64,000 bases of DNA, taken from NCBI RefSeq assembly GCF_040215725.1, contig NZ_CP157969.1, positions 372,001 through 436,000 on the forward strand, written 5' to 3'. This DNA comes from Rhizobium sp. ZPR4 (GTDB taxonomy: Bacteria > Pseudomonadota > Alphaproteobacteria > Rhizobiales > Rhizobiaceae). The position numbers and the translations under genes were made by a program. The notes under the pieces are model-generated. The model was not told where the DNA came from, did not search any database, and was given only the letters and a program-made list of their open reading frames with translations. Positions 1,284 to 20,529 of the stretch are shown one piece after another. The number at the start of each line of letters is the position of its first letter. Within the stretch, counting starts at the first letter, position 1.

Positions 1284-1308
1284 GGAACACGGCTCAGAAC
1301 GGATTGTT
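1284..1308 (+). promoter_or_regulatory. possible EcfG-type promoter (near match, GGAAC-N16-TGTT)
   Basis: GGAAC at 1284-1288 is followed after exactly 16 bases by TGTT at 1305-1308. This differs from the EcfG consensus CGTT at one base. It lies about 120 bp upstream of the membrane protein starting at 1427. It is weaker evidence than the five perfect sites elsewhere in this region. Confidence 0.3.
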
Positions 1309-1426
1309 CCTCCTTCGGGGAACGGAAGTACATTAGAAACCCAATCCTTCCGTCATATTTTCAGTCCTGCCATGCTGACGCCTGATTTTTCTGGTGTCTG
1401 TCGGGCTTACTTTCGAAGGGCGCAAC

Positions 1427-1954
1427 ATGGAATTCGTCAATCGGTACATCGATCGTCCGCTGCTTGGCGGCGGATCAGCAGCTATGCGGTTGTGGCACAG
1501 TCGGACGGGCCATTCTCCGCAGAAGCTCGGCCCGCTGTTGAATCTTGTCGTCATCCTTGCCCTTCTGTCGACAAGCGGCCTGCTTCTGAATGGTCCGATC
1601 TATCTTTTTGCCGTCGGCACGCTCTTCTTGCTTGCCGTTCCGTCACTGCGCTTATTGGCGCGTGGTTGGACAGGGCAGAGTTACGATATACGAAGCTACC
1701 AGGCGCTGGCGGCCGCAGCCGCTCGCAAACGTGACGCTGAATGGGCGACACGCCTGACGGTTTTGCTCACCGCCACCGTCTTTCCCTTCTGTGTCTCCGT
1801 GGACGATCCAGCGGCGAGCATATTCCTGCTTGGCGCCAGTCTTTGGTTCGTGCTTACAGCGCCGGTGAAGATGTATCTGGACGCCGCCGAACCGCCCCCG
1901 CCGGACAGCGGCGGCAAGAAGGCCTTGAGGAGACAGGCGACAATGGCGGCATGA
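1427..1954 (+). CDS. hypothetical integral membrane protein
   Basis: The protein has about 175 residues counted from the ATG at 1427, which follows GAAGGG at a normal distance; an upstream GTG at 1394 in the same frame has no comparable ribosome site. It has about four hydrophobic segments in two pairs (LLNLVVILALLSTSGLLL with an adjacent segment, then LTVLLTATVFPFCV and IFLLGASLWFVLTAPV), separated by an Ala/Arg-rich hydrophilic loop. It ends in a basic tail. I do not recognise the family. It sits at the edge of the stress-gene block, upstream of the UPF0391 gene, and may have a weak EcfG-like promoter. Confidence 0.6.
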   Translation: MEFVNRYIDRPLLGGGSAAMRLWHSRTGHSPQKLGPLLNLVVILALLSTSGLLLNGPIYLFAVGTLFLLAVPSLRLLARGWTGQSYDIRSYQALAAAAARKRDAEWATRLTVLLTATVFPFCVSVDDPAASIFLLGASLWFVLTAPVKMYLDAAEPPPPDSGGKKALRRQATMAA

Positions 1955-1970
1955 CGCTGTCGTCATCTGA

Positions 1971-1996
1971 GGAACAAAGCACTCCCAGTTCCGTTC
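1971..1996 (+). promoter_or_regulatory. EcfG-type sigma promoter (GGAAC-N16-CGTT)
   Basis: GGAAC at 1971-1975 and CGTT at 1992-1995 are separated by exactly 16 bases, which matches the published alphaproteobacterial general-stress (EcfG) promoter. The UPF0391 start codon at 2024 lies about 28 bp after the -10 element, leaving room for a short leader with the GGAGAG ribosome site. It overlaps no coding sequence, since the upstream gene stops at 1954. Confidence 0.7.
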
Positions 1997-2023
1997 TCCT
2001 TCCAGCAACCAATGGAGAGCGAA

Positions 2024-2185
2024 ATGCTTTATTATGCATTGATATTTCTCGTCGTGGCTTTGATCGCGGGTGCCCTTGGCTTCGGCGGCATAGCGGGCGC
2101 GTCCGCGTCCATCGCACAGGTCCTGTTCTTTATCTTCCTTATTTTCTTCGTCGTTTCACTCATCATGAACGTGATGAGACGCTAA
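2024..2185 (+). CDS. UPF0391/DUF1328 small membrane protein (YtjA-like)
   Basis: This 53-residue protein starts [20 protein letters not shown] and has two hydrophobic helices (residues ~4-26 and ~31-49) separated by a glycine/alanine turn (GGIAGASA). It ends NVMRR. Size and pattern match the DUF1328/UPF0391 family of tiny inner-membrane proteins. These are often induced by stress or stationary phase, but their molecular role is not known. The ATG at 2024 follows GGAGAG. It sits directly behind a perfect EcfG-type promoter, so general-stress control is the likely mode. Confidence 0.85.
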
Positions 2186-2307
2186 GGCAGAAGACGAAAG
2201 AGGACACGATCATCGAGACCAGCCGCGTCGTTGTCGCCTTGTGACACCGGGCTGGTCTCCGCGAGCACACTCATCGCTACCGACAGCCAATGCGCGCAAA
2301 TGGCTCT

Positions 2308-2332
2308 GGAACGTTTCGGCCCTTTCGAAGTT
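2308..2332 (+). promoter_or_regulatory. possible EcfG-type promoter (GGAAC-N16-AGTT)
   Basis: GGAAC at 2308-2312 is followed after 16 bases by AGTT at 2329-2332, one base off the CGTT consensus. The site lies 26 bp upstream of the DUF4142 start codon, which is the spacing seen at the perfect sites. It is plausible but unproven. Confidence 0.4.
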
Positions 2333-2357: not shown

Positions 2358-2885
2358 ATGAAACGCTCAATCATTACTGCAGGAATTCTACTCCTGGCCA
2401 CCACGGCATTTGCCCAATCAGCCGCGGAAAAGACAGGCGTCAATTCTCTCGTAGGCGCCGCGCCGACGACGCAGGATTTCGTCAACGAGGCTGCAAGCAG
2501 CGACATGTTCGAAATCGAAGCCAGCAAGCTTGCTCTACAGCGTGGCGATGCCCAGGCAAAAACTTTTGCCCAGCAAATGGTCAACGACCATCAAAAAACG
2601 ACCATGCAGTTGAAGGATCTGGTGACCGGCGGCAAGGCGAATGCGACGCTTCCCACCGAAATGACGTCCAGTCAGAAAAAGATGCTGACCAGACTCCAAA
2701 AGCTACAAGGAAAGGAATTCGACCAGCGATATGATTCCGACCAGCGCTCGGCTCACGCCAATGCCGTCGACCTTTTCAAGCGATATGGAGAAAAGGGAGA
2801 CAACGCTGCATTGAAAGCATGGGCGGCCAATACGACACCCACGCTCCAGCATCACCTGGAGATGGCCAAGCAACTGGGAAAATAA
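2358..2885 (+). CDS. DUF4142 periplasmic protein
   Basis: The 175-residue protein begins with a signal peptide (MKRSIITAGILLLATTAFAQ, cleavage expected near residue 20). It then has an all-helical DUF4142-like domain with the typical series DFVNEAASSDMFEIEASKLA, TFAQQMVNDHQK and a C-terminal HHLEMAKQL. DUF4142 proteins are exported, ferritin-like-fold proteins of unknown biochemistry that recur in rhizobial stress loci. The ATG at 2358 is chosen over upstream in-frame starts because AAAGGAGA lies at ideal spacing and the signal peptide starts there. A near-consensus EcfG promoter precedes it. Confidence 0.85.
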   Translation: MKRSIITAGILLLATTAFAQSAAEKTGVNSLVGAAPTTQDFVNEAASSDMFEIEASKLALQRGDAQAKTFAQQMVNDHQKTTMQLKDLVTGGKANATLPTEMTSSQKKMLTRLQKLQGKEFDQRYDSDQRSAHANAVDLFKRYGEKGDNAALKAWAANTTPTLQHHLEMAKQLGK

Positions 2886-3146: not shown

Positions 3147-4250
3147 ATGTCGACCCAGAGGGTTGCGGAGGCGCGGCCCGCTATTTTTCAGAATGCGCCC
3201 TCCCGCACTGCACAAACCAGGAATACGTTGCTGGAGCAGCTTGGATCCAACGCTCCCACCGCTCAGGCTTTCCTTGCGGCAATCGTCGAGAATTCGGACG
3301 ACGCAATCATCAGCAAATCCATCAATGGCATCATTACGAGCTGGAACAGGAGTGCCGAGCGGTTGTTCGGATACACCGCCGAAGAGGCGATTGGCGAGCA
3401 TATTACGATCATCATTCCCGAGGATCGACTTCTCGAGGAAGAAACGATCATCTCGGCAATCAGGGCGGGAGAAAAGATCGATCACTACGAGACGATCCGA
3501 CGCCGAAAGGATGGCACCCTGGTAGAGATCTCGTTGACCGCGTCCCCTGTCCGCGACGATCTGGGGAACATCATCGGAGCGTCGAAGGTGGCGCGCGACA
3601 TTTCCGAGCGCAAGCGTGTTGCCGAGGGCCAGGAGCTGCTACTGCGGGAAATGAACCACCGCACCAAGAATATCTTCGCGGTTATCGGCGCTGTAGTCGG
3701 ATTAAGTGAGCGCACGTCGACTTCGATCCAAGAATTCGCAGGGGATCTGAGAGCCCGTGTAAACGCGCTTGCGATCGCCCATGAATTGACCTTGCCAGGC
3801 GCAAGTGGCGCGAGCGTCCAGTCACACGATACGACACTCTTTACTCTGATCAAGGCGCTGTTCGCCCCTCACCAGGATGGGGGTACCGACCGCGTCTCCA
3901 TAAATGGCCGAGATGTTCCCGTTAGAGGTACAATTCTGACGTCGCTCGCCCTCTTGCTGCACGAATTCGCGACAAATGCGGTGAAGTATGGAGCCCTCTC
4001 CAGTCCGGAGGGTAGGATCGCGATCAACATAGGTTGCGACGACGATTTTGTCCTGACGTGGACTGAACTCGGAGGACCTCCGACCGCCCGGCCTGAAGGT
4101 CCCGGAGGATTCGGCTCACAGCTTGAGCGCGCGACGATCAGCTCTCTGCATGGAGCCATTGACCGCGAGTGGAATCCATCCGGATTGAAGATCCTGCTGC
4201 GAATCCCGTCGCATATCCTGCAGGACGAGCGAGGTTCGGGCACTGCTTGA
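3147..4250 (+). CDS. PAS domain HWE-family sensor histidine kinase
   Basis: This 367-residue soluble kinase has no membrane segment. Residues ~41-155 form a PAS/PAC domain ([17 protein letters not shown] ... ARDISERK), and the C-terminal half is an HWE-type kinase. The phosphoacceptor is His171 in [10 protein letters not shown], the N-box lies in [14 protein letters not shown] (Asn277), and the family-defining WxE is W305-T-E307. HWE/HisKA_2 kinases often act on PhyR in the alphaproteobacterial general stress response (known for the family). No response regulator or phyR lies beside it. The ATG at 3147 follows GGAGG at good spacing. Its place among EcfG-promoter genes supports, but does not prove, a role in stress signalling. 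Confidence 0.85.
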
Positions 4251-5007: not shown

Positions 5008-5508
5008 TTATGCCGCTTTCTTCGCCTTTGCATTCGCCGCGGTTTCCGCAAGCTTCGTCAGCTTCTGATCCGTGGCCTTTTCCTCGCTCAAGGTCTGCTG
5101 CAGAAGAGATACGGCGTCCTTGAGCCCAAGCTGCTTTGCCCATTCGATGAGGGTGCCGTAGCGGGCGATTTCATAATGCTCGACGGCCTGGGCCGAGGAA
5201 ATGAGGCCTGCATCGAGCGCCGGGGCGCCCTTGAATTCCTCCATGATCTCGTCGGCCTCTGCGATGATGCCCTGGATTGCTTCGCAAGTCTTTCCGCGCG
5301 CCGGCTTTCCCAGCATCTCGAACACCTGCTCCAGACGTTCGACATGACCCTGGGTCTCATCGCGATGATGAAGAAAGCCCTGTTTGCCTTCTTCAGCCTG
5401 GGCCGCGCGCGCCATCTTCGGCAATGCCCGAAGAATTTGCTTCTCGGCGTAATAGATGTCTTTCAACGTTTCGAGAAAGAGATCGTTCAAAGTCTTCTCG
5501 GATGCCAT
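5008..5508 (-). CDS. DUF892 ferritin-like protein (YciE/YciF family)
   Basis: The 166-residue all-helical protein starts MASEKTLNDLFLETLKDIYYAEKQ-like and contains the paired E/H helices of the DUF892 family (YYAEKQIL, HRDETQGHVERLE, EHYEIARYGTL, EEKATDQKL). It ends in a lysine/alanine tail. DUF892 proteins adopt a ferritin-like four-helix bundle with a di-metal site and are stress-induced. The E. coli members YciE and YciF are known, but the reaction is not settled. GGACC precedes the ATG. It lies downstream of the NRAMP gene on the same strand with its own possible EcfG promoter. A distant paralogue is encoded at 17354. Confidence 0.85.
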   Translation of the reverse strand: MASEKTLNDLFLETLKDIYYAEKQILRALPKMARAAQAEEGKQGFLHHRDETQGHVERLEQVFEMLGKPARGKTCEAIQGIIAEADEIMEEFKGAPALDAGLISSAQAVEHYEIARYGTLIEWAKQLGLKDAVSLLQQTLSEEKATDQKLTKLAETAANAKAKKAA

Positions 5509-5573: not shown

Positions 5574-5598
5574 AACAGACAGTCTGAAGTTTGGTTCC
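5574..5598 (-). promoter_or_regulatory. possible EcfG-type promoter for the DUF892 gene (GGAAC-N16-TGTT)
   Basis: Read on the minus strand, GGAAC (5598-5594) is followed after 16 bases by TGTT (5577-5574), one base off the consensus. It lies in the gap between the NRAMP stop and the DUF892 start at 5508. Confidence 0.35.
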
Positions 5599-5607
5599 CG
5601 CTTGGCC

Positions 5608-6906
5608 TCAGAAAAATGCGGTCACGGCCATGCCGATCACGGCAGCAAACATTGTGGCGCAGGAGATCCATCCAAGTGCTTTCAATCCGCCGCGGATAAC
5701 AAACTGCTTCATCACCTTGGGATTGGAGGCGATCAGCATGAGGATCGCCATGACGGGAACGGCGACTATACCGTTGATCACTGCGCTCCAGAACAGGGCC
5801 TTCATCGGCGGAATGGGCGTGAAGTTCAGCAACATGCCCACCATGGTCGCAAGTCCTACCGTCGTGTAGAAAGCCTTCGCCTCGCTCGGCTCGCGCGACA
5901 GCCCAACCTTCCATCGGGCCGCCTCCCCGACCGCATAGGCCGCAGAACCGGCGAGAACCGGCACGGCCAGAAGACCGGTTCCTATAATCCCGGTGGCAAA
6001 GACGATCTTGGCGAAGTGTCCGGCCAAAGGTTCAATCGCCTTCGCGGCATCGACGGAGCTCTCGATATTCGCGGCACCAGCCTTGTTAAGCGTGGCTGCG
6101 GTCGTCGTGATGATTGCCAGCGCGACTATATTGGATGCCGCCATGCCGATGAGCGTATCCAGTGTGATGCGAGCGTCCGCCCTTTTCGCTTCCCGCGGAT
6201 GCTTCACCAGCGCTTCCTGCCGGGGTTTTTCCTTCAGGTCCTCGGCTTCCTGAGATGCCTGCCAGAAAAACAGATAGGGGCTGATCGTCGTTCCAAAGAT
6301 CGCAACGATCATCGACCAGTAGTTCGGGTCCGCCTTGAACGTCGGCAGCAGTAGCCCGCGGGTGAAGCTCGACCAATCGACGTGCACCACGAACAGGGTC
6401 GCGATGTAGGACAAAAGCGCCAGGCTCAACCATTTCAGGACGGCCACGTAGCGCTTGTATTTGAGGAGAACCTGCAAAAGGATGCAGATCACGCCGAAGC
6501 CTGCGACATAAATCAGTGAATTGCCGTTCAACAGCAAATGAGCCGCGTCTCCCATCGCACCGAGATCCGCGCCCAGATTGATGATATTGGCAACCAGGAG
6601 CGGGACAGTAACGCTCACTCCAACCCAGCGGGGATAACATTTCGCCATGCTGCCCGCCAAACCCCGGCCCGTGGTTCGGCCGATACGGGCACTGATCATC
6701 TGCACGGCAACCATCAGCGGATAGGTGAGGACGAGCGTCCAACTCGCCATATAACCGAATTGCGCTCCGGCCTGCGAATAGGTCGCAATCCCGCTCGGAT
6801 CGTCGTCTGAGGCACCGGTGACCAGACCAGGCCCAAGGATTTCCAGTATCCGTGGTTTTGAAGGCTCAACGACCGCACTTTTGTCATCCACCTGATAGTC
6901 GCTCAT
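5608..6906 (-). CDS. NRAMP-family divalent metal transporter (non-canonical motif)
   Basis: The 432-residue protein has about 11 hydrophobic segments. Transmembrane segment 1 carries DDDPSGIATYSQAG (residues ~34-47) where classical MntH/NRAMP proteins have DPGN. Segment 6 carries TISPYLFFWQ (207-216) where MntH has the MPHN methionine motif. These substitutions place it in the divergent NRAMP-related branch, for which transport of Mg2+/Mn2+ rather than Fe2+ has been proposed. GGGAGG precedes the ATG at 6906. It is followed by the DUF892 gene on the same strand, a metal-handling pairing that fits stress physiology. The substrate remains an inference. Confidence 0.85.
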   Translation of the reverse strand: MSDYQVDDKSAVVEPSKPRILEILGPGLVTGASDDDPSGIATYSQAGAQFGYMASWTLVLTYPLMVAVQMISARIGRTTGRGLAGSMAKCYPRWVGVSVTVPLLVANIINLGADLGAMGDAAHLLLNGNSLIYVAGFGVICILLQVLLKYKRYVAVLKWLSLALLSYIATLFVVHVDWSSFTRGLLLPTFKADPNYWSMIVAIFGTTISPYLFFWQASQEAEDLKEKPRQEALVKHPREAKRADARITLDTLIGMAASNIVALAIITTTAATLNKAGAANIESSVDAAKAIEPLAGHFAKIVFATGIIGTGLLAVPVLAGSAAYAVGEAARWKVGLSREPSEAKAFYTTVGLATMVGMLLNFTPIPPMKALFWSAVINGIVAVPVMAILMLIASNPKVMKQFVIRGGLKALGWISCATMFAAVIGMAVTAFF

Positions 6907-6968: not shown

Positions 6969-6994
6969 AACTGTACTTCCCGCCTGTTTGTTCC
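6969..6994 (-). promoter_or_regulatory. possible EcfG-type promoter for the NRAMP gene (GGAAC-N17-AGTT)
   Basis: On the minus strand GGAAC (6994-6990) is followed after 17 bases by AGTT (6972-6969), 63 bp upstream of the start codon. Both the spacer and one -10 base deviate from the best sites in this window. Confidence 0.3.
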
Positions 6995-7279
6995 GAAAAA
7001 GCATGCGACGCTAAATCGGTACAACTTCAGGGACTTGGCTACTATTCCCGCTCAATCGTTGAGGCTCCTTCGCAGATCGCTGGCCATCGGCAGTGGCGCA
7101 GGTTTGGCTCGCCGTTCGAGACCAGCATGGACCGGGGATTCACGACTTATGGGATTGAATGCTGCCGATGACGTGTCTGCGCCAAGACAGAAGATTCCCC
7201 GAGCCGTGGATGGGCAGACAGTTTCAAGAGGAGGTCTGCTGGCAAGTTCAGCAATGTCGGGAACATCGGCGGGTTGGCA
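6995..7279. other. intergenic stretch without recognised gene
   Basis: Together with the promoter segment just before it, this makes a gap of ~370 bases between the NRAMP gene and a tiny ORF at 7280. No frame has recognisable protein similarity and no repeat or stable terminator was seen. Confidence 0.4.
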
Positions 7280-7429
7280 ATGTTAGACCACTATATCGAT
7301 GGGCTCGCAGGAGCGACCATCGGATGGAAACTTGGATACGAACAAGCCAACTTTGTCGATTTCGTCCGTTCCTGCATCGTGGCCACGATGGAAGGTCTTA
7401 GTTTTCGCGCCTACCGACAGGGAAGATAA
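7280..7429 (+). CDS. possible 49-residue small protein upstream of the Old Yellow Enzyme
   Basis: An ATG at 7280 opens a 49-codon frame (MLDHYIDGLAGATIGWKLGY at the N-terminus, ending RAYRQGR) whose stop is two bases before the Old Yellow Enzyme ATG. The composition, with an amphipathic Gly/Ala/Trp segment then a FVDFVRSC helix, looks protein-like, but I know no family and there is no clear ribosome site. It could be a leader peptide, a translationally coupled small protein, or chance. Confidence 0.3.
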   Translation: MLDHYIDGLAGATIGWKLGYEQANFVDFVRSCIVATMEGLSFRAYRQGR

Positions 7430-7431
7430 AT

Positions 7432-8520
7432 ATGGCGAATCTATTTACCCCAATGGTCTTGAACGGCCTTGCACTTCCCAACCGCATCTGGATGTCAGCG
7501 ATGACCCGCACGCGCGCAACAGCCGAGAACGTGCCGACATCCTTGATGGGCGAATACTTTGCGCAGCGAGCGGCGGCCGGTCTGATCGTGACAGATTGCA
7601 CAGCGGTGTCGGAGCAAGGCAAGGGCATAATTAACGGCCCCGGCATCTGGCGCGACGATCAGATCGAAGGATGGAAGGTGGTTACCAATGCGGTTCATGC
7701 CGCCGGGGGCCGAATCTATTGCCAACTCTGGCATTGCGGCCGCGTCGCACATCCGCAAATGCGGGGCGGAGAATTGCCGGTCGCGCCCTCCCCTCTGCCG
7801 GCGAAGGGCAAGTACAAGTTTCCCGACCACGAGGCGGAGTTCCCAATTCCACATGAACTCGCTGCTGCCGAGATTCCGAAAATTATCGAGGACTTCGCAC
7901 AGGCGACCCGCAATGCCCGCATCGCAGGGTTCGATGGTGTCGAGTTGCATGGCGCCAATGGATACCTGCATGATCAATTCCTGCAGGACGTCAGCAATAG
8001 ACGCACCGATCGTTGGGGCGGCGCGATCGAGAACCGTTCATTGTTTATGCTTGAGACAATCGAAGCAATGGCAAACGCATGGTCAACCGACCGGATAGGC
8101 ATCCGCCTCGGGCCATCGACTTCACTCTATGGGATGGGCGACAGCGATCCGCTCAAAACGTTTGGCTATCTCGTCAAACAGCTTGATCGTCGCAAAATCG
8201 GCTATCTGACGATGCTGGAGCCGAACAGAAAGGAATTGGAGTCGGGTGTCCAGGTTTCGCATGTGGCCCAGACTTTTCGACCGATGACGACAGTGCCATT
8301 CATCGCCAATACGGGATTCGACAAGGCCAGCGGAATGGATGCTATCGCTTCAGGTAATGTCGATGCCGTGGCCTATGGCACTTTGTTTCTGGCCAATCCT
8401 GATCTGGTGGCGCGCTTTGCTTCGGGAGACCGCGAATTTAACAAGCCTGATCCCAAAACTTTCTACGGTACCGGGCCAAATGGTTACACGAATTATCCGT
8501 TGCGTCGCGGGGAACCTTGA
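7432..8520 (+). CDS. Old Yellow Enzyme family alkene reductase (NemA-like)
   Basis: This 362-residue TIM-barrel flavoprotein begins LFTPMVLNGLALPNRIWMSAMTR, the usual FMN-binding N-terminus. It has the substrate-binding pair H173/N176 and Tyr178 in HGANGYLHDQFLQDVSNR, and the C-terminal phosphate-binding region (AYGTLFLANPDLVARF). OYE/NemA enzymes use FMN and NADPH to reduce activated alkenes, quinones and nitro compounds in the cytoplasm. The ATG at 7432 is preceded by AGGGAAGAT. It is a single gene; the 49-codon frame at 7280 abuts it. No repressor of the NemR type is beside it. Confidence 0.9.
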   Translation: MANLFTPMVLNGLALPNRIWMSAMTRTRATAENVPTSLMGEYFAQRAAAGLIVTDCTAVSEQGKGIINGPGIWRDDQIEGWKVVTNAVHAAGGRIYCQLWHCGRVAHPQMRGGELPVAPSPLPAKGKYKFPDHEAEFPIPHELAAAEIPKIIEDFAQATRNARIAGFDGVELHGANGYLHDQFLQDVSNRRTDRWGGAIENRSLFMLETIEAMANAWSTDRIGIRLGPSTSLYGMGDSDPLKTFGYLVKQLDRRKIGYLTMLEPNRKELESGVQVSHVAQTFRPMTTVPFIANTGFDKASGMDAIASGNVDAVAYGTLFLANPDLVARFASGDREFNKPDPKTFYGTGPNGYTNYPLRRGEP

Positions 8521-8540
8521 GCACGCCGCCCGTCTGACGA

Positions 8541-8795
8541 TCACGCCTCAAATATCTCGACGCCACTTTCTTCGAGCGCGGCGAGGAATGCGGCTCTCGC
8601 TACAAGCGCCTCTACATGGCCTTCATGCGCGCTAATCAATGTGCGCTTCGCGTTTTTGAAGGCAATTCCGTGCGACTTTGCCGGCCAGCTTCGCAAAAGA
8701 TAATAGGTGGCGGCCTCGGTGTTGACAATCGTCAAGCGCTGACCGGGCTTGCTCGTTTCGACCGTGATTGGCTTGCTCCACAATTGTTGTGTCAT
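8541..8795 (-). CDS. DUF982 protein
   Basis: The 84-residue protein (from ATG 8795) matches the small DUF982 family, which is common and multicopy in rhizobia. Shared marks are a W..PITVE start, a LLRSWPAKSHGIAFKNAKRT core and a conserved C-terminal AFLAALEESGVE-type helix. No biochemical role is known to me. A longer frame upstream is rejected because a strong GGAGGAGG site sits just before ATG 8795 and because a perfect EcfG-type promoter overlaps the longer version. The leader would be only about a dozen bases. It is divergent from the Ku-LigD operon. Confidence 0.85.
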   Translation of the reverse strand: MTQQLWSKPITVETSKPGQRLTIVNTEAATYYLLRSWPAKSHGIAFKNAKRTLISAHEGHVEALVARAAFLAALEESGVEIFEA

Positions 8796-8815
8796 GGTTG
8801 TCCTCCTCCAGCAAG

Positions 8816-8840
8816 AACGGCACCACAACCCGAATGTTCC
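8816..8840 (-). promoter_or_regulatory. EcfG-type promoter for DUF982 (GGAAC-N16-CGTT)
   Basis: On the minus strand GGAAC (8840-8836) and CGTT (8819-8816) are separated by exactly 16 bases. The start codon lies about 20 bp beyond the -10 element, so the transcript would begin almost at the Shine-Dalgarno sequence. Confidence 0.7.
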
Positions 8841-8873
8841 ACGGGAGAATCCTTCGCGAACAATACCCAAACC

Positions 8874-8898
8874 GGAACAATGGGAACCTAATCTCGTT
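8874..8898 (+). promoter_or_regulatory. EcfG-type promoter for Ku1-LigD (GGAAC-N16-CGTT)
   Basis: GGAAC at 8874-8878 and CGTT at 8895-8898 are separated by exactly 16 bases. The Ku start at 8929 is 30 bp further on. The site is back-to-back with the DUF982 promoter in a 133-bp divergent intergenic region. Confidence 0.7.
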
Positions 8899-8928
8899 TG
8901 ACTCCCATCGTCTACATGGAGCCCGCCT

Positions 8929-9795: not shown

Positions 9796-9797
9796 CC

Positions 9798-12374: not shown

Positions 12375-12405
12375 CAAACGCCCGATGGAAGTCCTGCCAC
12401 GTTGA

Positions 12406-13212: not shown

Positions 13213-13235
13213 AAGCTCTCCTCCAATAGGAAAGG

Positions 13236-13260
13236 AACGATCACCGAGAGGCATGGTTCC
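13236..13260 (-). promoter_or_regulatory. EcfG-type promoter for Ku2 (GGAAC-N16-CGTT)
   Basis: On the minus strand GGAAC (13260-13256) and CGTT (13239-13236) are separated by exactly 16 bases, and the Ku2 ATG is 24 bp beyond. The layout matches the Ku1 promoter. Confidence 0.7.
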
Positions 13261-13287
13261 ACGGAGAGGACAGTCGTTAGCTCAGGA

Positions 13288-14898
13288 TCAATGCACGCCG
13301 CCACCGCCGCCCTCCTTGAGATCGACATTGCTGAGGATCAGGGCGAGCGGGATGGCGCAAAGCACGATCAGCATCAACACATGGAACACATCGATATAGG
13401 CAAGAAAACTCGCCTGGGTCTGCACCTGTTGTCCGATCCAGGCGGTCGCTTGCGACTTCGCATCCGGCATCGTCGCACTCCTCTCGGCGAAATAGCGCGT
13501 CATGATCTGCAGTGTCTCATGATAGGCGGGTGCGGACGGCGTGATGTGCTCGACCAGGTGGCTTTGATGCCATTGTTCACGATGCGCGAGCACATTTGAG
13601 GCAATGCACACGCCGATCGAACCACCAATATTACGGGCGGCGTTGATCATGGCCGACGCCTGGTTGGTCTGATCCGGTCTTAAGCCATAATAGGAGGCCG
13701 ACGTGATCGGAATGAAGATCAGCGGTAGGCCGAGCCCAATATAGAGACGCGACCAGACGAAGAAACCGAAGTTCAGGCCGGGATAGAGCCGCGTCAGCTG
13801 CCACATCGATACGGCGATGATCGCCGCGCCGATGGCGATCAGATATTTCGGCTGAACCAGGGAATTCACGCGGCCGGCAACGAACATCATGACCATGGTC
13901 ACAAGACCGCCCGGCGAAAGTGCCAGGCCGGCCCAGGTCGCCGTATATCCGTAGTTCTGCTGCACGACCTCTGGAAGGAACTGCGTCGTTGCGATCAGGA
14001 TCGCACCGGTCGCCATCATGACGATGAAACAGGATCCAAATTGCCGGGTGCCGAGCAGCCATCCGTCGATAATGGGGTTCGCCCTTGTCAGAACCCATGG
14101 AATGGCGAGAGCGAAGGCCAGCACACATATCCCGGTCATTGCGATGATGAATGTGGAACCGAACCAGTCATCCGTCTGGCCTCGATCCAGGACGAGCTCC
14201 AACGATCCGAGAAAAGTCGCGACGAGGAGGAAGCCGATAATGTCGAAGCGCACTCCTTCTCGGCGAAACTCCTCGCGCTTGCGCCGCGTCTGTGACGATT
14301 CCTTCAGCAGCGCATAGACTAACACAAACGCGAATATGCCAACGGGACCGTTGATGAGAAAACACCAGTGCCACGACAGATTGTCGGAGAGATAGCCGCC
14401 CAAGGTCGGCCCGATAACCGGGGCGACGACAACGGCGACACCGAAGAGGGCAAAGGCCTGACCGCGCTTTGACGAAGGAAATGCGTCGGCAAGAATAGCT
14501 TGCGACGTCGGCACCATGCCGCCACCGGCGAAGCCCTGGATCATCCGGAAAATCAGCAATGTCTCCAGATTCCAGGATAGGCCGCACAGAACCGAAGCAA
14601 TCGTGAAGGTGGCAAGGCACAGAAGATAGAAGCGCCGTCGCCCGAAGCGCTCGGAAAAGTAGCTGCTGGCAACGAGCACGATCGCATTCGAGACGAGATA
14701 GGTCGTCACCACCCAGGAGGCCTCATCGGAGCTGACGGCAAGGCCTCCGGAAATATAGCGCAGCGCCACATTGGCGATCGTCGTGTCGAGCACCTCCATG
14801 AAGGTCGCCAGCGATACGACAATGGCGATCAGCCAGGGATTCGTTGCGCCTGTGGAGGATGCTCCGGCTCCGCCGGCCGTTGCGCTTGCCCCGCTCAT
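13288..14898 (-). CDS. emrB: EmrB/QacA-type MFS drug efflux permease
   Basis: The 536-residue permease has about 14 membrane segments of the DHA2 family. Marks are the N-terminal MEVLDTTIANVALRYISGG motif, the loop motif FGRRRFYL between segments 2 and 3, and the antiporter segment VVVAPVIGPTLGGYL. It exports drugs or toxic compounds by proton antiport and normally works with a membrane-fusion partner, which is encoded immediately upstream on the same strand with a 1-bp gap. No outer-membrane factor gene is present nearby. Its poorly conserved Gly-rich C-terminus (KEGGGGGVH) is an oddity without clear meaning. Confidence 0.92.
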   Translation of the reverse strand: MSGASATAGGAGASSTGATNPWLIAIVVSLATFMEVLDTTIANVALRYISGGLAVSSDEASWVVTTYLVSNAIVLVASSYFSERFGRRRFYLLCLATFTIASVLCGLSWNLETLLIFRMIQGFAGGGMVPTSQAILADAFPSSKRGQAFALFGVAVVVAPVIGPTLGGYLSDNLSWHWCFLINGPVGIFAFVLVYALLKESSQTRRKREEFRREGVRFDIIGFLLVATFLGSLELVLDRGQTDDWFGSTFIIAMTGICVLAFALAIPWVLTRANPIIDGWLLGTRQFGSCFIVMMATGAILIATTQFLPEVVQQNYGYTATWAGLALSPGGLVTMVMMFVAGRVNSLVQPKYLIAIGAAIIAVSMWQLTRLYPGLNFGFFVWSRLYIGLGLPLIFIPITSASYYGLRPDQTNQASAMINAARNIGGSIGVCIASNVLAHREQWHQSHLVEHITPSAPAYHETLQIMTRYFAERSATMPDAKSQATAWIGQQVQTQASFLAYIDVFHVLMLIVLCAIPLALILSNVDLKEGGGGGVH

Positions 14899-14899
14899 G

Positions 14900-16045
14900 T
14901 CAATGTCTCGGGCGCACGGTCACGGTCGGCACCACGGACATGCCGGGACCGATGGCGACATCTGCTGGCCATCTGTCGACGACAATCTTCACCGGCACGC
15001 GCTGCGTGACCTTGACGTAATTGCCAGTCGCATTCTCGGCCGGCAGCAGCGAGAAGGCCGTGCCTGAACCTGGCTGGACAGACGCAACCTTGCCGCGGAG
15101 CGTATGATCCGGATAGGCGTCGATCGTCAGATCCACCGGCTGGTCCGGCCGCATGTCGGTGAGCTGCGTCTCCTTGAAGTTCGCCGTGATCCAGACCTCG
15201 TCGGGAACGAAGGTCGAGATTGCCTGCCCCGCATCGATAAACTGCCCCTTGGCGCCGGTGAGACGAACAACGCGGCCCGGCTGGGCGGCGGTTATCCTCG
15301 TATAGTTCAGATTCTGCTGCGCCTCTTCCACCTGCGCCTGCGCCTGTTTCAGGCTTGCGAGCGCACTGGATTTCTGGGCTTCCGAAACCGCCTTGTTCTT
15401 TAGCGCCGAGGTTATATTCGCCTGCATCTGGGCAAGGCTCGCCTGATCCTGCTGCAGGGTTGCCGCCGCCTGCTGCACTGCCTGCACGCTGCCGGAACCG
15501 GTCTTGACCAGTTGTTGCTGGCGATTGGATTCCTGCTGCGCAAATTGCAGAGCCGCGCTCGCGGAATTCTGCTGCGCCCTTGCGACGTCGACGGAGGCGC
15601 TCGCCGCTTCGATCTGCGCGCTGGCGCTATCAATGGAGGCCTTTGCCACCTCCACCTGTCCGTTCGCCTGATCGAGCGCGATCTGATAATCGCGCGGATC
15701 GATCCTCAGGATGACATCGCCCGTTTTGACGTGCTGGTTATCCGTCACAGGGACCTCGGCCACGTAGCCGGAAACCTTGGCGGCGACTGCGAAACTGCGA
15801 GCGTCGATAAAGGCATCATCCGTCGTTTCATAGGGATAGAAATAGATCTTCCAGACGATCCATGAAGCGACGATCAGGGCTATCAATACCGCAACGCCGA
15901 ACACGATCCACCATGGATGGCGGCGAAGGAGAGAAGCTCGCTTGGGCTCTCGCTCCGTCTCCTTTCGACGATCAGTCTCGTCAAAAGCCTGCTGTCTCGG
16001 CCTATCCGGCCGCTGATCCATAGTCGAGGGTTGATTGTCAGCCAT
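14900..16045 (-). CDS. emrA: EmrA/HlyD-type membrane fusion protein
   Basis: The 381-residue adaptor has a charged cytoplasmic N-terminus, one membrane segment (~residues 48-70, WWIVFGVAVLIALIVASWIV), and a periplasmic lipoyl/barrel-hybrid part. That part is split by a long Ala/Gln-rich coiled coil (~130-250). This is the layout of EmrA. It links the inner-membrane EmrB permease, encoded 1 bp downstream, to an outer-membrane channel. No EcfG-type promoter and no local repressor were seen upstream. Confidence 0.92.
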   Translation of the reverse strand: MADNQPSTMDQRPDRPRQQAFDETDRRKETEREPKRASLLRRHPWWIVFGVAVLIALIVASWIVWKIYFYPYETTDDAFIDARSFAVAAKVSGYVAEVPVTDNQHVKTGDVILRIDPRDYQIALDQANGQVEVAKASIDSASAQIEAASASVDVARAQQNSASAALQFAQQESNRQQQLVKTGSGSVQAVQQAAATLQQDQASLAQMQANITSALKNKAVSEAQKSSALASLKQAQAQVEEAQQNLNYTRITAAQPGRVVRLTGAKGQFIDAGQAISTFVPDEVWITANFKETQLTDMRPDQPVDLTIDAYPDHTLRGKVASVQPGSGTAFSLLPAENATGNYVKVTQRVPVKIVVDRWPADVAIGPGMSVVPTVTVRPRH

Positions 16046-16105: not shown

Positions 16106-16795
16106 TCAGTGGCGCAGAAAGCGCCGGATCTTTTTCAGATCCTGAACGAAGGCGAGTCGGTTCTTTTCCCTTTCGTCCACTTCCCTCATCCGCAAAAGCG
16201 CTGAGGGATGGATGGTGACGAGAACGTCGAACTTCGTAGACGGATGCAGGATACGGCCGCGGTCGCGCAGGACCCGCACCTTCGAGCCGAGCAGCGAGGA
16301 TACGGCCGTTGCGCCGAGTGCGACCACCAGCTTCGGCTTCAGGAGTTCGAGTTCCGCGCCGAGCCACCAGGCGCAACGCTGCACTTCCCCGGCATTCGGC
16401 CTTGCGTGCAGGCGCTTCTTGCCGCGCATCTGGTACTTGAAATGCTTGACGGCGTTGGTGACGTAGCAACGCTCCCTATCCACGCCCGCCTCTTCAAGGC
16501 AGCGATCGAGTAACTGGCCTGCCGGGCCGACGAAAGGCCGGGCGGCATGATCTTCCTTGTCGCCGGGCTGCTCCCCAACCAACACGATGTCGGCCGTGTC
16601 GGGTCCCTCGCCAAAGACGAGATGAGTGGCGTTGCGATAAAGTTCGCATCGCTTGCATGATTGCGCATTCTCACGCAGCTCACCGAGTCTATCGGCATCT
16701 GCGTGTTCGTACGCTAGCGAAGGGCCTGCGCCCGTCGAAGGAAGGTTTTCGAGCATTGGGGGGCTCGCAATGGTTTCAGCATCTCCGACGATCAA
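16106..16795 (-). CDS. UdgX-type uracil-DNA glycosylase (covalent uracil-DNA binding family)
   Basis: This Fe-S uracil-DNA glycosylase superfamily protein has CKRC near residue 47, the active-site motif GEQPGDKEDH (74-83) and the C-terminal HPSALLR. The loop GKKRLHARPN carries His130 (numbered from the TTG at 16795). It corresponds to the KRRIH loop of mycobacterial UdgX, whose histidine forms a covalent bond with the abasic site after uracil excision (known for UdgX). The start is uncertain: a TTG at 16795 gives 229 residues, while an ATG at 16756 gives 216 and suits a possible promoter at 16794-16818. The nearby Ku and LigD genes suggest a shared DNA-repair theme. Confidence 0.85.
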   Translation of the reverse strand: MIVGDAETIASPPMLENLPSTGAGPSLAYEHADADRLGELRENAQSCKRCELYRNATHLVFGEGPDTADIVLVGEQPGDKEDHAARPFVGPAGQLLDRCLEEAGVDRERCYVTNAVKHFKYQMRGKKRLHARPNAGEVQRCAWWLGAELELLKPKLVVALGATAVSSLLGSKVRVLRDRGRILHPSTKFDVLVTIHPSALLRMREVDEREKNRLAFVQDLKKIRRFLRH

Positions 16796-16818
16796 CTAAC
16801 CGCCGTTCTGTTTGTTCC
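16794..16818 (-). promoter_or_regulatory. possible EcfG-type promoter for UdgX (GGAAC-N16-AGTT)
   Basis: On the minus strand GGAAC (16818-16814) and AGTT (16797-16794) are 16 bases apart, one base off CGTT. If used, translation would start at the ATG at 16756 rather than the TTG at 16795. Confidence 0.4.
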
Positions 16819-16842: not shown

Positions 16843-16867
16843 GGAACTCACCACCTTGGCATTCGTT
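16843..16867 (+). promoter_or_regulatory. EcfG-type promoter (GGAAC-N16-CGTT)
   Basis: GGAAC at 16843-16847 and CGTT at 16864-16867 are separated by exactly 16 bases, 35 bp upstream of the YflT-like gene. It is divergent from the possible UdgX promoter. Confidence 0.7.
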
Positions 16868-16901: not shown

Positions 16902-17255
16902 ATGACCAGCGAAAGCAAACTCGGCTCCTTCGCGCTCAGCGCATTCTTCGACGACGAATATGATGCGGAGGCCGCCGCCCAGGCACTGATGGAGGCCGGC
17001 ATCCCCAGGGATGCGATCACCATGACGCCAGGCAATCGACCAGATACCGCCCCAATCGATCACATCGGTTTTCTGGACGCCCTAACGGGCATGTTCTTCC
17101 ATGAAGAACAGCGCGCAGCTTATGCGGCCGCTCTGGAACGCGGGGGAACGCTGGTGACCGTGCAAGAGATGAACGAGGCGCAGCATAATATCGCCCTGCC
17201 GATCCTGGCCGAAAAAGGCCAGATCGAACTCAACGAGAGGGAACGCAGCGGCTGA
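16902..17255 (+). CDS. YflT/general stress protein 17M-like small protein
   Basis: The 117-residue soluble protein begins with a βαβ-like unit: FALSAFFDDEYDAEAAAQAL, then AGIPRDAITM. This resembles the N-terminal domain of Bacillus YflT/GSP17M-like proteins, often found in general-stress loci; the match is by pattern only. The ATG at 16902 is chosen over the adjacent GTG at 16899 because AAGGAAAGA is better placed. A perfect EcfG-type promoter precedes it. It is followed by the second DUF892 gene about 100 bp away. Function unknown. Confidence 0.65.
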   Translation: MTSESKLGSFALSAFFDDEYDAEAAAQALMEAGIPRDAITMTPGNRPDTAPIDHIGFLDALTGMFFHEEQRAAYAAALERGGTLVTVQEMNEAQHNIALPILAEKGQIELNERERSG

Positions 17256-17353
17256 TATCGGCAAGCATTCACGTTCGACGATCACGGAAAACCGGTGTGC
17301 CCCCGTTGTTCGGGAGGTTGCCGGGCAATGACCGCCAACCAATGGAGGATGCC

Positions 17354-17872
17354 ATGGCACAGACTGAGATTCACGACATGTTCGTCATCGGCCTTCGCAA
17401 TGCCTATGCGATGGAAAATCAGGCATTGGGGATAATGAGACCGCAACTGTCACGCCTGGAACATTATCCGGAGGTGGCGGCAAAGATTGAGCAGCATATC
17501 GACGAGACGGAAGATCAAATCAGCCGACTTGAGCACATCCTCAAGGATATGGACGCGAATTATCTCGACCTCAAGGACATGATCCTGTCCTACACCACGC
17601 CGACGACGGTGATGAGCTATACTGGCTCGGGCGACGCGGTATTGAAGGACGCATTTGGCGACTTCGCGTTCGAGAACTACGAGATCGCCACGTATAAATC
17701 GTTACTGACGATCGCCGATGCCGGAAATTTTGGCGAGGCAAAAAGCGCGCTGCAGGATAGCCTTGTCGAAGAGCAGGCCATGGCCAAATGGCTCGATGAC
17801 AATCTACCGGCCGTCACGCGAAAGTTTCTGCTGATGTGGGAGCAAGACGCGCCACTCGCGCATCGAGCGTAG
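17354..17872 (+). CDS. second DUF892 ferritin-like protein
   Basis: The 172-residue protein starts MAQTEIHDMFVIGLRNAYAM and has the DUF892 helices with paired acidic and histidine residues: YAMENQAL, EQHIDETEDQISRLEH, FENYEIATYKSL and LVEEQAMAKWLDD. It is clearly a diverged paralogue of the protein encoded at 5008-5508, so two family members sit 12 kb apart in one island. GGAGG lies 5-6 bases before the ATG at 17354; an in-frame ATG at 17342 overlaps that site and is rejected. It is probably a stress-related metal-binding four-helix protein. Confidence 0.85.
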   Translation: MAQTEIHDMFVIGLRNAYAMENQALGIMRPQLSRLEHYPEVAAKIEQHIDETEDQISRLEHILKDMDANYLDLKDMILSYTTPTTVMSYTGSGDAVLKDAFGDFAFENYEIATYKSLLTIADAGNFGEAKSALQDSLVEEQAMAKWLDDNLPAVTRKFLLMWEQDAPLAHRA

Positions 17873-17904: not shown

Positions 17905-18102
17905 TTAGTCTGACGGATGGCCAGGCACGTGCTGATCGCTGCGGATCTTTTGCGCATCCATAAATCCATGCGCCCATTGATCGCAGCGATGATCATCCTT
18001 TGGAAATGGGTTGTGGTCACTGCTCGCTCCCTTTTCAAAGGCCTTCCGGCCGAGCTCGTAGGCGTCCTCTTCTGAAATCGCATCATCGTTGCTCGTCTTC
18101 AC
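17905..18102 (-). CDS. ribosome modulation factor/CrpP-like small protein
   Basis: The 65-residue protein, read from a GTG start at 18102, has the pattern AYELGRKAFEKG ... NPFPKDDHRCDQWAHGFMDA. The G..A...G, NPF and R..W..GF positions match the ribosome modulation factor (RMF)/CrpP family. RMF dimerises 70S ribosomes in stationary phase, and CrpP-like members have been linked to antibiotic tolerance (known for the families). The GTG is preceded by AAGGAGG at 5-6 bases; an upstream in-frame ATG at 18249 lacks this. It lies among stress genes, which suits RMF-like dormancy. No promoter was recognised. Confidence 0.7.
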   Translation of the reverse strand: MKTSNDDAISEEDAYELGRKAFEKGASSDHNPFPKDDHRCDQWAHGFMDAQKIRSDQHVPGHPSD

Positions 18103-18667
18103 GACGGCCTCCTTCCCGGCATCAAGCGCGCGTCGAGGCAGGCAATCACAAAAGCGGCTCGCGATGCCTCGACGGGGATTTTGTGCGAAACCGCCGCAAT
18201 GCATCTTTCTGTCGCACGCGCGTAGGAAGTACTCCGCTCGCAAGGCCATCGCCGTGACAGGAAATGGATCGCGTCCTCCGGCCCCTGGATCAGACAGTTG
18301 TCTCGACTGCTGGTCGCAAGGCAGACTGGCATCGACCAGAGCATTTTGAATTCCACATCAATCACATTATGCATCTGGCCCTCCCGTGTCGTGGATGCCC
18401 CTCTCCTGGGCTCGAACCATATGCGCTGCTGTTTGTTCCCGAAACCGACCCTGTCCGGGACTGCTTTCCAGGAATTATCGCATCAAATCTGGAAACCTTT
18501 GCCGACGGCATTTGTTCGTATCTGAGGGTAAGGATTTCCTCTCATTCCTGCTCACCTAAGGCCCCTCTTGATGAGCTTACAAAGCCAGCCGTTGCCGCAC
18601 GCGAGCCATGGTTCACGTTCGGTTCACGCGCCGACGCCTATAAGCAGGGCTCAATCCGGATCGAGAA
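18103..18667. other. 565-bp stretch without recognised gene
   Basis: Several short frames cross this interval but none resembles a known family or has a good start site. It must contain the promoters of the leftward RMF-like gene and the rightward receiver gene. Only a poor GGAAA-N17-TGTT match was seen near 18500-18526. Confidence 0.4.
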
Positions 18668-19060
18668 ATGGACGGTTCAGCACCTCTCTTTTGTCAGATG
18701 TTTTCGGGGAAACGGCTCCTGGTGGCAGAGAGCGGTTACTTTCTAGCCGACGAGGTGCGCCAAAAACTGCGTGAGCTCGGGGCAATGATAGTTGGTCCAA
18801 TCCATAATCTCGAATATGCGTCCGATCTCATCGAGGCGAATGACGTGGACGCGGCGATACTCGACCTGAATCTCGAGCCGGAACAGGTATTTCCCCTGGT
18901 TGAACGGCTCGACAGGCAAAAGATTCCCTATCTCTTCGCTCTTGGCGGAGAGCCAATCGATGCAAGCATGAAATTTACGGGTTTTGTATTATCCAAGAGG
19001 CCAGTCGCCCTCGAGCATATTGCCAAGGCACTGTTCGGCACCCCAGACAAGGATACCTAG
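18668..19060 (+). CDS. single-domain response-regulator receiver protein (partly degenerate)
   Basis: The 130-residue protein is one CheY-like receiver domain. It has the phosphoacceptor region DAAILDLNL and a conserved lysine near the end (LSKRP). At the N-terminal acidic pocket the usual V(E/D)DE is VAES, so one metal-binding acid is missing. It lacks an output domain and lacks the sigma-like domain of PhyR. Such proteins are common near HWE kinases in rhizobia and can act as phosphate sinks or modulators. It precedes the convergent sigma factor gene. Whether it still accepts phosphate is unclear. Confidence 0.75.
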   Translation: MDGSAPLFCQMFSGKRLLVAESGYFLADEVRQKLRELGAMIVGPIHNLEYASDLIEANDVDAAILDLNLEPEQVFPLVERLDRQKIPYLFALGGEPIDASMKFTGFVLSKRPVALEHIAKALFGTPDKDT

Positions 19061-19106
19061 CGCCGCGCATTGCGACGCAGTACAATGAGGAGAAGGGCGG
19101 GCCTCA

Positions 19107-19610
19107 TCAATGCCTGTCTTCATCAAGGTGGGCTGCTAACTGCTGCCGAGCTCGACTGAGCCGGCTTTTTACCGTCCCGATCGCACAGCCAAATTTCTCG
19201 GCGGCAGCATCATAGGAGCGTCCTTCGATGACCACATATTCGAGCACGACGCGATAAGGCTCCGGCAGCAGATTACACGCCTCTTCCATTTCCTTGGCTC
19301 TTATGGTCCATTCCTGCGATGGCGGGGCCGCCCCAGCGCCGGAAACGCATTTCTTGATACCGGGAGCCTCGCGCTTGGCGATGCGGAATTTCGTACAGAA
19401 CGTATTGCGCATGATCGTAAACAGCCAGGACTTCAGTCGAGTGCCCTGATCGAATTGATTGAGATTGGCCAGCGCCTTCGCAAGGGTTTCCTGGACCAGA
19501 TCATCGGCGTCGTTGGCGTTTCTATGAAATGTGCGCGCGAATGCGCGAAGGGCCGGAATAAGCTCCACTATTTCGTTTTGCAGACCGGCTGTGCTCGGGC
19601 TATCGGTCAC
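19107..19610 (-). CDS. EcfG-like ECF sigma factor (general stress response type)
   Basis: The 167-residue protein has sigma region 2 (LRAFARTF, DADDLVQETLAKAL, residues ~21-47; LKSWLFTIMRN) and region 4 (AAEKFGCAIGTVKSRLSRAR, ~136-155). The linker with PSQEW is typical of the EcfG/ECF15 group. EcfG directs RNA polymerase to GGAAC-N16-17-CGTT promoters, is held by NepR, and is released by phosphorylated PhyR (known). Neither nepR nor phyR is in this window, so this looks like an additional EcfG copy. The GTG at 19610 is chosen because AAGGAG precedes it; the longer ATG-started frame has no such site. Confidence 0.85.
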   Translation of the reverse strand: MTDSPSTAGLQNEIVELIPALRAFARTFHRNANDADDLVQETLAKALANLNQFDQGTRLKSWLFTIMRNTFCTKFRIAKREAPGIKKCVSGAGAAPPSQEWTIRAKEMEEACNLLPEPYRVVLEYVVIEGRSYDAAAEKFGCAIGTVKSRLSRARQQLAAHLDEDRH

Positions 19611-19918
19611 AACTTTTCTCCTTGAAAAACGCGCGCAACGACACTGCCCGCATTGATGCGCAATGCGTGGTTCGGCTGCCGCCAAACGCACTAGACCGAC
19701 ACCGGTGCCCTACGGGCGTCGGAGAGAGCCTTGATTGATTTTGATGTAAGCAGACTTGTTGTCAGCCATACCGATTGCGATGCCGGGATGCTTCCTAGCG
19801 ATCTCGGGGTTTAGATGTTCTTTGCATCTCGTAAGGGAACGGCTGCACCCTGAGCTTGTTCCATGAAAACCTAAATAAGCATGGAAGCGTAACCAGAGTG
19901 AGATCTGCCAGTATTGGT
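19611..19918. other. intergenic region upstream of the sigma factor gene
   Basis: These 308 bases lie between the sigma factor start and the nuoB stop. No perfect GGAAC-N16-CGTT site precedes the sigma gene, so self-activation is not evident. No other structure was recognised. Confidence 0.4.
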
Positions 19919-20476
19919 CTATCGCTCGATCGTGCCGTTGCGGCGAATTTTGCGCTGGAGGAGGAAAATGCCATAAAGCAGCGCCTCGGCGGTTGGCGGA
20001 CAGCCGGGCACATAGATATCGATGGGGATGATCCGATCGCAGCCACGCACCACCGAATAGGAATAGTGATAATAACCGCCGCCATTGGCGCATGAGCCCA
20101 TCGAGATCACATAACGCGGCTCGGGCATCTGATCATAAACCTTGCGCAACGCCGGCGCCATCTTATTGCAAAGGGTGCCCGCGACGATCATCAGATCTGA
20201 CTGCCGCGGACTGCCTCTCGGCGCGGCGCCAATACGTTCCACGTCATAGCGCGGCATGGACATCTGCATCATCTCGATGGCGCAGCAGGCAAGGCCGAAC
20301 GTCATCCACATCAGCGAGCCGGTGCGCGCCCAACTGACGAACTCGTCCGTGCTTGTGACGAGAAAGCCCTTGTCTGCAAGTTCATTGTTGATCGTTCCCA
20401 TGAACGAGTCCCCACCGGGGGCCTCGCCTGGATATTGAAAGTCGCTGATGACAGGACGATCCTTGTAAGAAGACAT
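19919..20476 (-). CDS. orphan NADH-quinone oxidoreductase subunit B-like protein
   Basis: The 185-residue protein matches NuoB. The tetranuclear-cluster ligands of N2 are present: the adjacent cysteines in GLACCAIEM (64-65), Cys129 in MGSCANGGG and Cys159 in [10 protein letters not shown]. In complex I, NuoB sits next to the quinone site. Here no other nuo gene is nearby, so it is a stand-alone paralogue. Extra nuoB copies on secondary replicons are known in rhizobia. The start at 20476 is used because the longer frame begins with a TTG. A near-consensus EcfG promoter lies upstream. Confidence 0.9.
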
Positions 20477-20504
20477 GGTTAGCTCTCTGATGGAAAAGAC
20501 ACCC

Positions 20505-20529
20505 AACTTGCGGGGGATCAGCTTGTTCC
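20505..20529 (-). promoter_or_regulatory. possible EcfG-type promoter for the nuoB-like gene (GGAAC-N16-AGTT)
   Basis: On the minus strand GGAAC (20529-20525) is followed after 16 bases by AGTT, about 30 bp upstream of the start codon. It is one base off consensus, as at the DUF4142 and UdgX genes. Confidence 0.4.

Follow-up and report, generated by a model that had tools for sequence, protein, structure and literature searches.

A non-canonical EcfG-type sigma factor gene lies amid a cluster of putative EcfG promoters on an accessory replicon of Rhizobium sp. ZPR4

What does a second EcfG sigma factor, encoded far from the canonical stress locus, do for its host? Additional EcfG copies are present in about half of sequenced alphaproteobacterial genomes, where their exact function has been called unclear, and non-canonical ecfG genes are plasmid-located as a rule (PMC3892343; papers cited here by their PubMed Central numbers are represented by excerpts). 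We address this question for a 64,000-nucleotide stretch of Rhizobium sp. ZPR4 (hereafter the window; C3:372001-436000, on the 1.24 Mb contig C3 of a genome of 7,736,088 bases in 7 contigs), in which such a gene, ecfG2, is surrounded by matches to GGAAC-N16-CGTT, the motif published for R. etli EcfG1 (PMC3892343). As judged from sequence, the region is probably (at roughly 0.6) an island of stress-regulon genes carried by an accessory replicon, with ecfG2 amid its likely targets. This reading draws on the enrichment of the boxes, their spacer specificity, their presence at homologous genes, their clustering around EcfG2-type loci and its fall-off with distance, a difference in the -10 element, and data on R. 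etli EcfG2.

We refer to GGAAC-N16-CGTT as the exact box and to GGAAC-N16-NGTT as the relaxed box. The window contains 7 exact boxes where 0.44 are expected, a number attained in 0 of 100 shuffles. An earlier sequence-only reading had reported five of these, each of which is found where it was placed (1971, 8840 minus, 8874, 13260 minus and 16843), but had overlooked two (19838-19862 minus and 22483-22507 plus); the six near boxes that it listed are all real, the one at 6969-6994 minus having an N17 spacer. Genome-wide there are 74 exact boxes, and the leftmost 22.5 kb of the window hold 7 of these, so that the density in this region and in the genome is not equal. Relaxed matches number 180 in the genome; 19 fall in positions 1-24000 of the window, none in 24001-64000, and nine more lie to its left, at C3:352001-372000. 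The island, which we define as the 44 kb formed by C3:352001-372000 and window 1-24000, carries 28 relaxed matches versus 0.87 at the density of the rest of the genome, the P value for this excess being nominal since the region was picked after inspection.

The 19 matches of the window include three dyad pairs, in which both strands match (GGAAC-N18-GTTCC at 1284-1310, 13234-13260 and 19836-19862). As dyads are counted twice, the 28 island matches correspond to 25 places. The suggestion that the cluster lies within 20 kb of the sigma gene was correct as to its existence but not its extent, which reaches approximately 40 kb, with about 25 EcfG-type box places, and continues to the left of the window, into a half that the sequence-only reading, confined to the window, did not cover. 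In the 40 kb beyond the left end of the island we found no relaxed match, save an uncounted one at the edge of the stretch (C3:351983), and no tRNA gene was found in the window or in the 60 kb to its left. C1 and other parts of C3 carry GGAAC-N18-GTTCC dyads as well; such dyads could be bidirectional EcfG promoters.

The spacer is specific: of the 101 GGAAC words in the 44 kb, 28 have NGTT after a gap of exactly 16 bases, while 18 other spacers between 8 and 26 together yield 22 matches, approximately one each. Positions relative to genes were assigned with a simple gene caller that takes the longest open reading frames (ORFs), which leaves gene starts uncertain. It placed 171 of the 180 relaxed matches of the genome; the other nine were two copies of a repeated element, one match at a stretch edge and six that were unlisted. 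Matches lie outside genes in 23 of 28 cases in the island, in 8 of 9 in a second cluster on C3 and in 47 of 134 elsewhere; among exact matches alone, 8 of the 9 island sites and 24 of the 65 others are non-gene. Fifteen of the 23 non-gene island boxes are at most 150 nucleotides from a gene start on the same strand, and five of the nine left-half boxes sit 8-46 nucleotides upstream of genes. The box at 2308 was scored as in-gene because the caller chose an early start for the DUF4142 gene. At the scale of the genome the motif shows no enrichment, since the reversed pattern is the commoner one (104 versus 74 exact matches, 307 versus 180 relaxed). An identical 25-base relaxed match occurs at C1:3125802, C1:3437591 and C1:3451914, and is probably part of a repeated element.

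The gene at 19107-19610 had been described as EcfG-like, and its sigma domains, its PhyR_sigma2 match and its placement in a tree bear this out: on sequence criteria, its product is a real EcfG-type sigma factor of the non-canonical EcfG2 kind. In a FastTree phylogeny of 44 sequences, which included 8 of the 10 other extracytoplasmic function (ECF) sigmas of the genome, it joins the p42f-encoded EcfG2 of R. etli and similar copies, and this group has canonical EcfG1 as its neighbour and is separate from those 8 ECF sigmas, some of the deep supports being modest (0.34 to 0.98). The EcfG2 and EcfG1 groups differ in sigma regions 2.3-2.4. Among plasmid records, the closest relatives of the gene come from Rhizobium sp. 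11515TR and AB2/73, followed by CCGE531/532 and R. tropici CIAT 899, where they are carried on large plasmids; the source of the window very probably belongs to the R. tropici group. The gene is plasmid-borne and far from nepR and phyR, and its orthologues are on named plasmids; the canonical EcfG1-NepR-PhyR-HWE kinase locus is at approximately 2.31 Mb on C1, which also carries the only NepR found.

The crowding of boxes recurs around the same kind of sigma gene in relatives, and much less so around ecfG1, which upholds the earlier claim that it goes beyond a usual scattered regulon. We took the 20 best sigma matches after the gene itself from 61 genomes, with about 20 kb for each (two loci were shorter, as the contig ended). 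These EcfG2-type loci contain 147 relaxed boxes versus 13.8 expected from the count of each genome, and 18 of the 20 reach a nominal P < 0.05; dyads were left unmerged in the counts, and the P values are not independent because the loci are related. For 17 of them we compared the canonical ecfG1 locus with a single ecfG2 locus from the same genome. Canonical loci carry 58 boxes, almost exclusively at the core (5 beyond 3.5 kb), and ecfG2 loci 118 (48 beyond 3.5 kb), the ecfG2 locus being the richer in 14 of the 17. Ten other ECF loci of the ZPR4 genome, of approximately 3.5 kb each, gave no box. In five named 40-kb loci, 43 boxes are within 10 kb of ecfG2 and 10 are farther away. The crowding is seen in ecfG2 loci of differing gene content. 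Its recurrence around relatives of the gene in other rhizobia suggests that the sigma factor moves together with a protective gene set of its own.

We also scanned the DNA upstream of homologous genes in 27 relative loci for the N16 box, a chance relaxed match in 360 nucleotides having a probability of about 0.5% by arithmetic estimate. Where homologues exist, most of those of the target genes named in the sequence-only reading have a box (Table 1). For NRAMP, an N17 box is present at one of three homologues (CIAT 899) and an N16 box at none. For Ku2, five of seven homologues carry the N16 box, and all seven carry a box when N17 is allowed; for UdgX, AGTT is kept in all four. In the left half, boxes are present at homologues of the catalase (1/1), the thiamine-pyrophosphate enzyme (1/1), the topoisomerase (1/2), the dehydrogenase (3/5) and the DUF296 gene (1/3). 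The second DUF892 gene, for which no box of its own was seen in the window, has one at four of five homologues. Spacer sequences diverge across homologues, with the -35 and -10 elements retained. No N16 box was found at homologues of LigD (0/7, one of them without upstream DNA) or EmrA (0/4), both presumably operon-internal genes without a box of their own, nor at those of the ribosome modulation factor (RMF)-like gene (0/5), the MFS2 gene (0/2) and the NUDIX gene (0/1). A lone box among five EmrB homologues was discarded, because it arose from cutting the sequence at the edge of a contig.

The sigma gene itself is preceded by a box, 225 nucleotides before the start used for it in the window. 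Among orthologues of at least 80% identity this box is present in 13 of 14 (L201 is without it), and in all ten loci compared, the window included, it lies 171-257 nucleotides before the sigma match. At one locus, L114, ecfG2 is flanked by genes of both the left and the right half of the island, which supports a single island.

Next to ecfG2 stands a gene for a single-domain response regulator. Its NCBIfam response-regulator match is weak (24 bits versus a cut-off of 151) and it has no Pfam match; a relative of it matches Response_reg. Homologues are present in 22 of the 27 ecfG2 loci. Fifteen are within approximately 1 kb of ecfG2 (nine tail-to-tail as in the window, five upstream in the same direction and one divergent), six lie roughly 2-7 kb off, and a single weak match of 32% identity is more distant; 4 of 15 homologues have a box. 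The FATGUY regulators MrrA and SdrG, for which a role as phosphorylation hubs in stress responses of other Alphaproteobacteria has been proposed, likewise have a single receiver domain (PMC5964349). Unlike them, the window copy reads FALGG, as does its lineage, with the acceptor Asp kept and the acidic pocket altered by partial loss. Among the 22 homologues the motif is FATGY in nine, FATA in five and neither in eight (one partial); it is relatives more distant from the window lineage that retain FATGY. The PAS-HWE kinase of the island had no homologue in the 27 loci at the thresholds used.

Taken together with known systems, these observations can be cast as a working model. A stress signal relayed by HWE kinases, PhyR and NepR would release the chromosomal EcfG1; EcfG1 or EcfG2 would fire the box upstream of ecfG2, and EcfG2 would build up and sustain its own synthesis. 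Both sigmas would then switch on the neighbouring genes for non-homologous end joining (NHEJ), UdgX, catalase, the ferritin-like protein and other protective functions. Targets that stay near the sigma gene could be co-inherited with it, and the single-domain response regulator would probably tune the phosphorelay.

The closest precedent is R. etli, where EcfG1 and EcfG2 act largely in parallel and each prefers its own promoter (PMC3892343), where EcfG2 is autoregulated and its loss reduces survival of oxidative stress (PMC3892343, PMC3188799), and where ggAAC-N16-cgTT is found upstream of genes in a stress RNA-seq paper (PMC4167512). R. etli EcfG2 (PF00052 on p42f, which from position and annotation we infer to be RHE_RS26680) belongs to the same sequence group as the window sigma and is also plasmid-borne without adjoining nepR or phyR; in the excerpts of one paper on R. 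etli EcfG, an ecfG1-like genomic context is not recognised for PF00052 (PMC3892343/PMC3188799), and promoter clustering goes unmentioned in these excerpts. The 30 kb around its gene hold 14 relaxed boxes, 13 of them outside annotated genes. It differs from the window sigma in having only about 52% identity to it, other neighbour genes, and no N16 box found before the gene itself. Another ECF sigma gene, accompanied by an NrsF-type gene (p42f 45000-75000, local 12082-13271), is located approximately 2.5 kb from R. etli ecfG2.

Further parallels exist. The canonical EcfG1-NepR-PhyR system shares its -35 element and spacer with the island boxes, whereas the island is without NepR or PhyR. S. meliloti RpoE2 controls a large regulon spanning three replicons (PMC3616915), including stress-inducible NHEJ (PMC12844678); here too, Ku and LigD genes stand behind predicted EcfG-type boxes, but with two Ku genes and one LigD gene in a single island that has its own EcfG2. 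In searches of open-licence PubMed Central, no listed title or abstract start reported that EcfG promoters cluster at a plasmid-borne ecfG. The components are known ones. What appears to be new, within the literature searched, is the way they are arranged, the response regulator as a frequent neighbour, and a candidate promoter grammar for EcfG2.

This possible grammar concerns the first base of the -10 element. Canonical-core boxes have C there in 49 of 61 cases, ecfG2-locus boxes in 27 of 118, and the boxes around R. etli ecfG2 in only 2 of 14. In the ZPR4 genome it is C in 19 of 27 chromosomal versus 6 of 18 island non-gene sites (P 0.03, dyads dropped); among in-gene matches, which are mostly chance, the count is 40 of 87. 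The raw ratio of CGTT to DGTT at non-gene sites, 23:24 elsewhere versus 8:15 in the island, gave by itself no clear difference and was set aside. Two other positions also vary: the base after GGAAC is A at 12 of 18 island versus 6 of 27 chromosomal sites (P 0.005), and that after GTT is C at 7 of 18 versus 3 of 27 (P 0.06), the latter as a lead only.

Several considerations weigh against such a grammar. Several box positions were inspected, and the canonical boxes represent few orthologous promoters across the 17 genomes. Non-gene sites on C2 are also mostly without C (C in 3 of 13), so that the replicon rather than the sigma may cause the -10 difference. Moreover, in an E. coli assay R. etli EcfG2 reads the phyR promoter (PMC3892343), whose counterpart in the ZPR4 genome is CGTT. 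We raise, as a less likely than not possibility, a second general stress response that is portable and in part autonomous, in which EcfG2 and its neighbourhood would use GGAAC-N16-NGTT without need for the C and selection would keep targets near the sigma. If this were true, gene content would turn over while promoter type and proximity persist. A motif was sought for EcfG2-dependent genes of R. etli and, in the excerpts, none was found (PMC3892343); this would follow if a CGTT consensus was used, because only 2 of the 14 local boxes read CGTT.

A number of observations speak against the island as a regulon of its own sigma. EcfG1 may read all island boxes. In R. etli, the CGTT motif is present at only one of the 19 units whose expression falls when ecfG2 is mutated (PMC3892343). 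Less similar ecfG2 homologues have an N16 box before the sigma gene in only 4 of 13 cases, 2 of the 20 EcfG2-type loci are not enriched at P 0.05, and the ecfG2 locus equals the canonical one in one of the 17 genomes and is poorer in two. Lastly, the second cluster on C3 (927-935 kb; C3:920001-940000, local 7062-15006) has nine relaxed matches and no ECF sigma match nearby, so that clustering does not require a local sigma. This cluster adjoins MgtC-type-like and PEBP-type-like genes and a phosphoketolase and acetate kinase pair, as read from translations.

The strongest competing explanation is that chromosomal EcfG1 alone reads the island, ecfG2 being a further target or a weak amplifier whose position is incidental. 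The 7 exact boxes of the window do fit the published EcfG1 motif (PMC3892343), the box upstream of ecfG2 stays CGTT in orthologues, and overexpression of S. meliloti RpoE5, a second ECF15 sigma that is encoded on pSymB and that RpoE2 activates, pointed to a single putative target (PMC6180224). Yet boxes crowd EcfG2-type genes in many genomes and do not extend beyond the ecfG1 core, 91 of the 118 boxes near EcfG2 are without the C of the EcfG1 motif, and the two R. etli sigmas are largely parallel (PMC3892343); we regard this explanation as unlikely. Less probable still is that stress genes merely gather on accessory replicons and that ecfG2 is one of them, its proximity having no function. The second C3 cluster would fit this idea, as would the usual location of non-canonical ecfG genes on plasmids (PMC3892343), but boxes thin out with distance from ecfG2 and the pattern recurs in loci of different gene content.

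That the motif is not a promoter but the dyad operator of a dimeric regulator, with GGAAC and GTTCC halves, would accord with the three dyad pairs of the island and with the C that often follows GTT in the loci. True dyads do exist; the halves are nevertheless asymmetric, since the words that precede N16-NGTT in 21 loci are GGAAC in 154 cases, CGAAC in 50, AGAAC in 27 and TGAAC in 14. A promoter is also favoured by the position before start codons and by the match to a promoter motif established by mapping. The operator is very improbable, and we rejected it. Chance or base composition, which would account for the exact matches outside the island being mostly in genes (41 of 65), is ruled out for practical purposes by the shuffles, the spacer control and the boxes at homologous genes.

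Table 1. Boxes and genes of the island, with window coordinates
Feature	Position	Strand	Remarks
Near box, dyad, TGTT	1284-1310	both	precedes ORF 1394-1954, whose 2 homologues are without a box
Exact box	1971-1995	+	upstream of DUF1328/UPF0391; 3/3 homologues with box
DUF1328 (UPF0391) gene	2012-2185	+	Pfam
Near box, AGTT	2308-2332	+	upstream of DUF4142; 1/1 homologue with box
DUF4142 gene	2358-2885	+	Pfam
PAS-HWE histidine kinase	3147-4250	+	Pfam PAS, HWE_HK
DUF892 gene (first)	5008-5508	-	Pfam
Near box, TGTT	5574-5598	-	upstream of DUF892; 5/6 homologues with box
NRAMP transporter gene	5608-6906	-	Pfam
Near box, N17 spacer	6969-6994	-	upstream of NRAMP
Near box, TGTT	7260-7284	+	before OYE-type oxidoreductase gene 7432-8520 (no homologue among 27 relative loci)
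DUF982 gene	8541-8795	-	Pfam on longer ORF; no homologue among relative loci
Exact box	8816-8840	-	upstream of DUF982
Exact box	8874-8898	+	upstream of Ku1-LigD; 5/5 Ku1 homologues with box
Ku1	8929-9795	+	Pfam, NCBIfam
LigD	9798-12374	+	Pfam; without box of its own
Ku2	12406-13215	-	Pfam, NCBIfam on longer ORF to 13254
Exact box, dyad with 13234-13258 plus	13236-13260	-	upstream of Ku2
UdgX-family uracil-DNA binding protein	16106-16783	-	NCBIfam TIGR03914 on longer ORF to 16795
Near box, AGTT	16794-16818	-	upstream of UdgX; 4/4 homologues with box
Exact box	16843-16867	+	upstream of YflT-like gene; 4/4 homologues with box
YflT-like gene (name from sequence-only reading)	16902-17255	+	no Pfam or NCBIfam match
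Second DUF892 gene	17342-17872	+	Pfam on longer ORF
Near box, GGTT	18415-18439	-	uncertain target; RMF-like gene downstream
Single-domain response regulator	18692-19060	+	tail-to-tail with ecfG2
ecfG2, non-canonical EcfG-type ECF sigma	19107-19610	-	Sigma70_r2, Sigma70_r4_2, PhyR_sigma2 matches
Exact box	19838-19862	-	upstream of ecfG2
Stand-alone nuoB-like gene	19919-20476	-	Pfam Oxidored_q6 on longer ORF
Near box, AGTT	20505-20529	-	upstream of nuoB; 5/5 homologues with box
Exact box	22483-22507	+	inside major facilitator superfamily (MFS) gene; probably chance
Near box, TGTT	23465-23489	+	rightmost of cluster
Left-half genes behind boxes			short-chain dehydrogenase, PCC/DUF296 protein, catalase, topoisomerase IB, thiamine-pyrophosphate enzyme

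Two genes of the window merit separate mention. The small protein encoded at 17905-18105 has a sub-threshold match to ribosome modulation factor, with homologues at five ecfG2 loci. The nuoB-like gene encodes a lone complex I subunit, and all five of its homologues have the box.

That in many genomes a plasmid EcfG copy is found where EcfG-type promoters are densely packed provides a concrete hypothesis for the function of such copies. It also supplies a candidate promoter grammar and about 20 promoters as candidates for testing. Finally, the boxes found here would tie DNA end joining and a uracil-DNA binding protein to an accessory part of the stress response.

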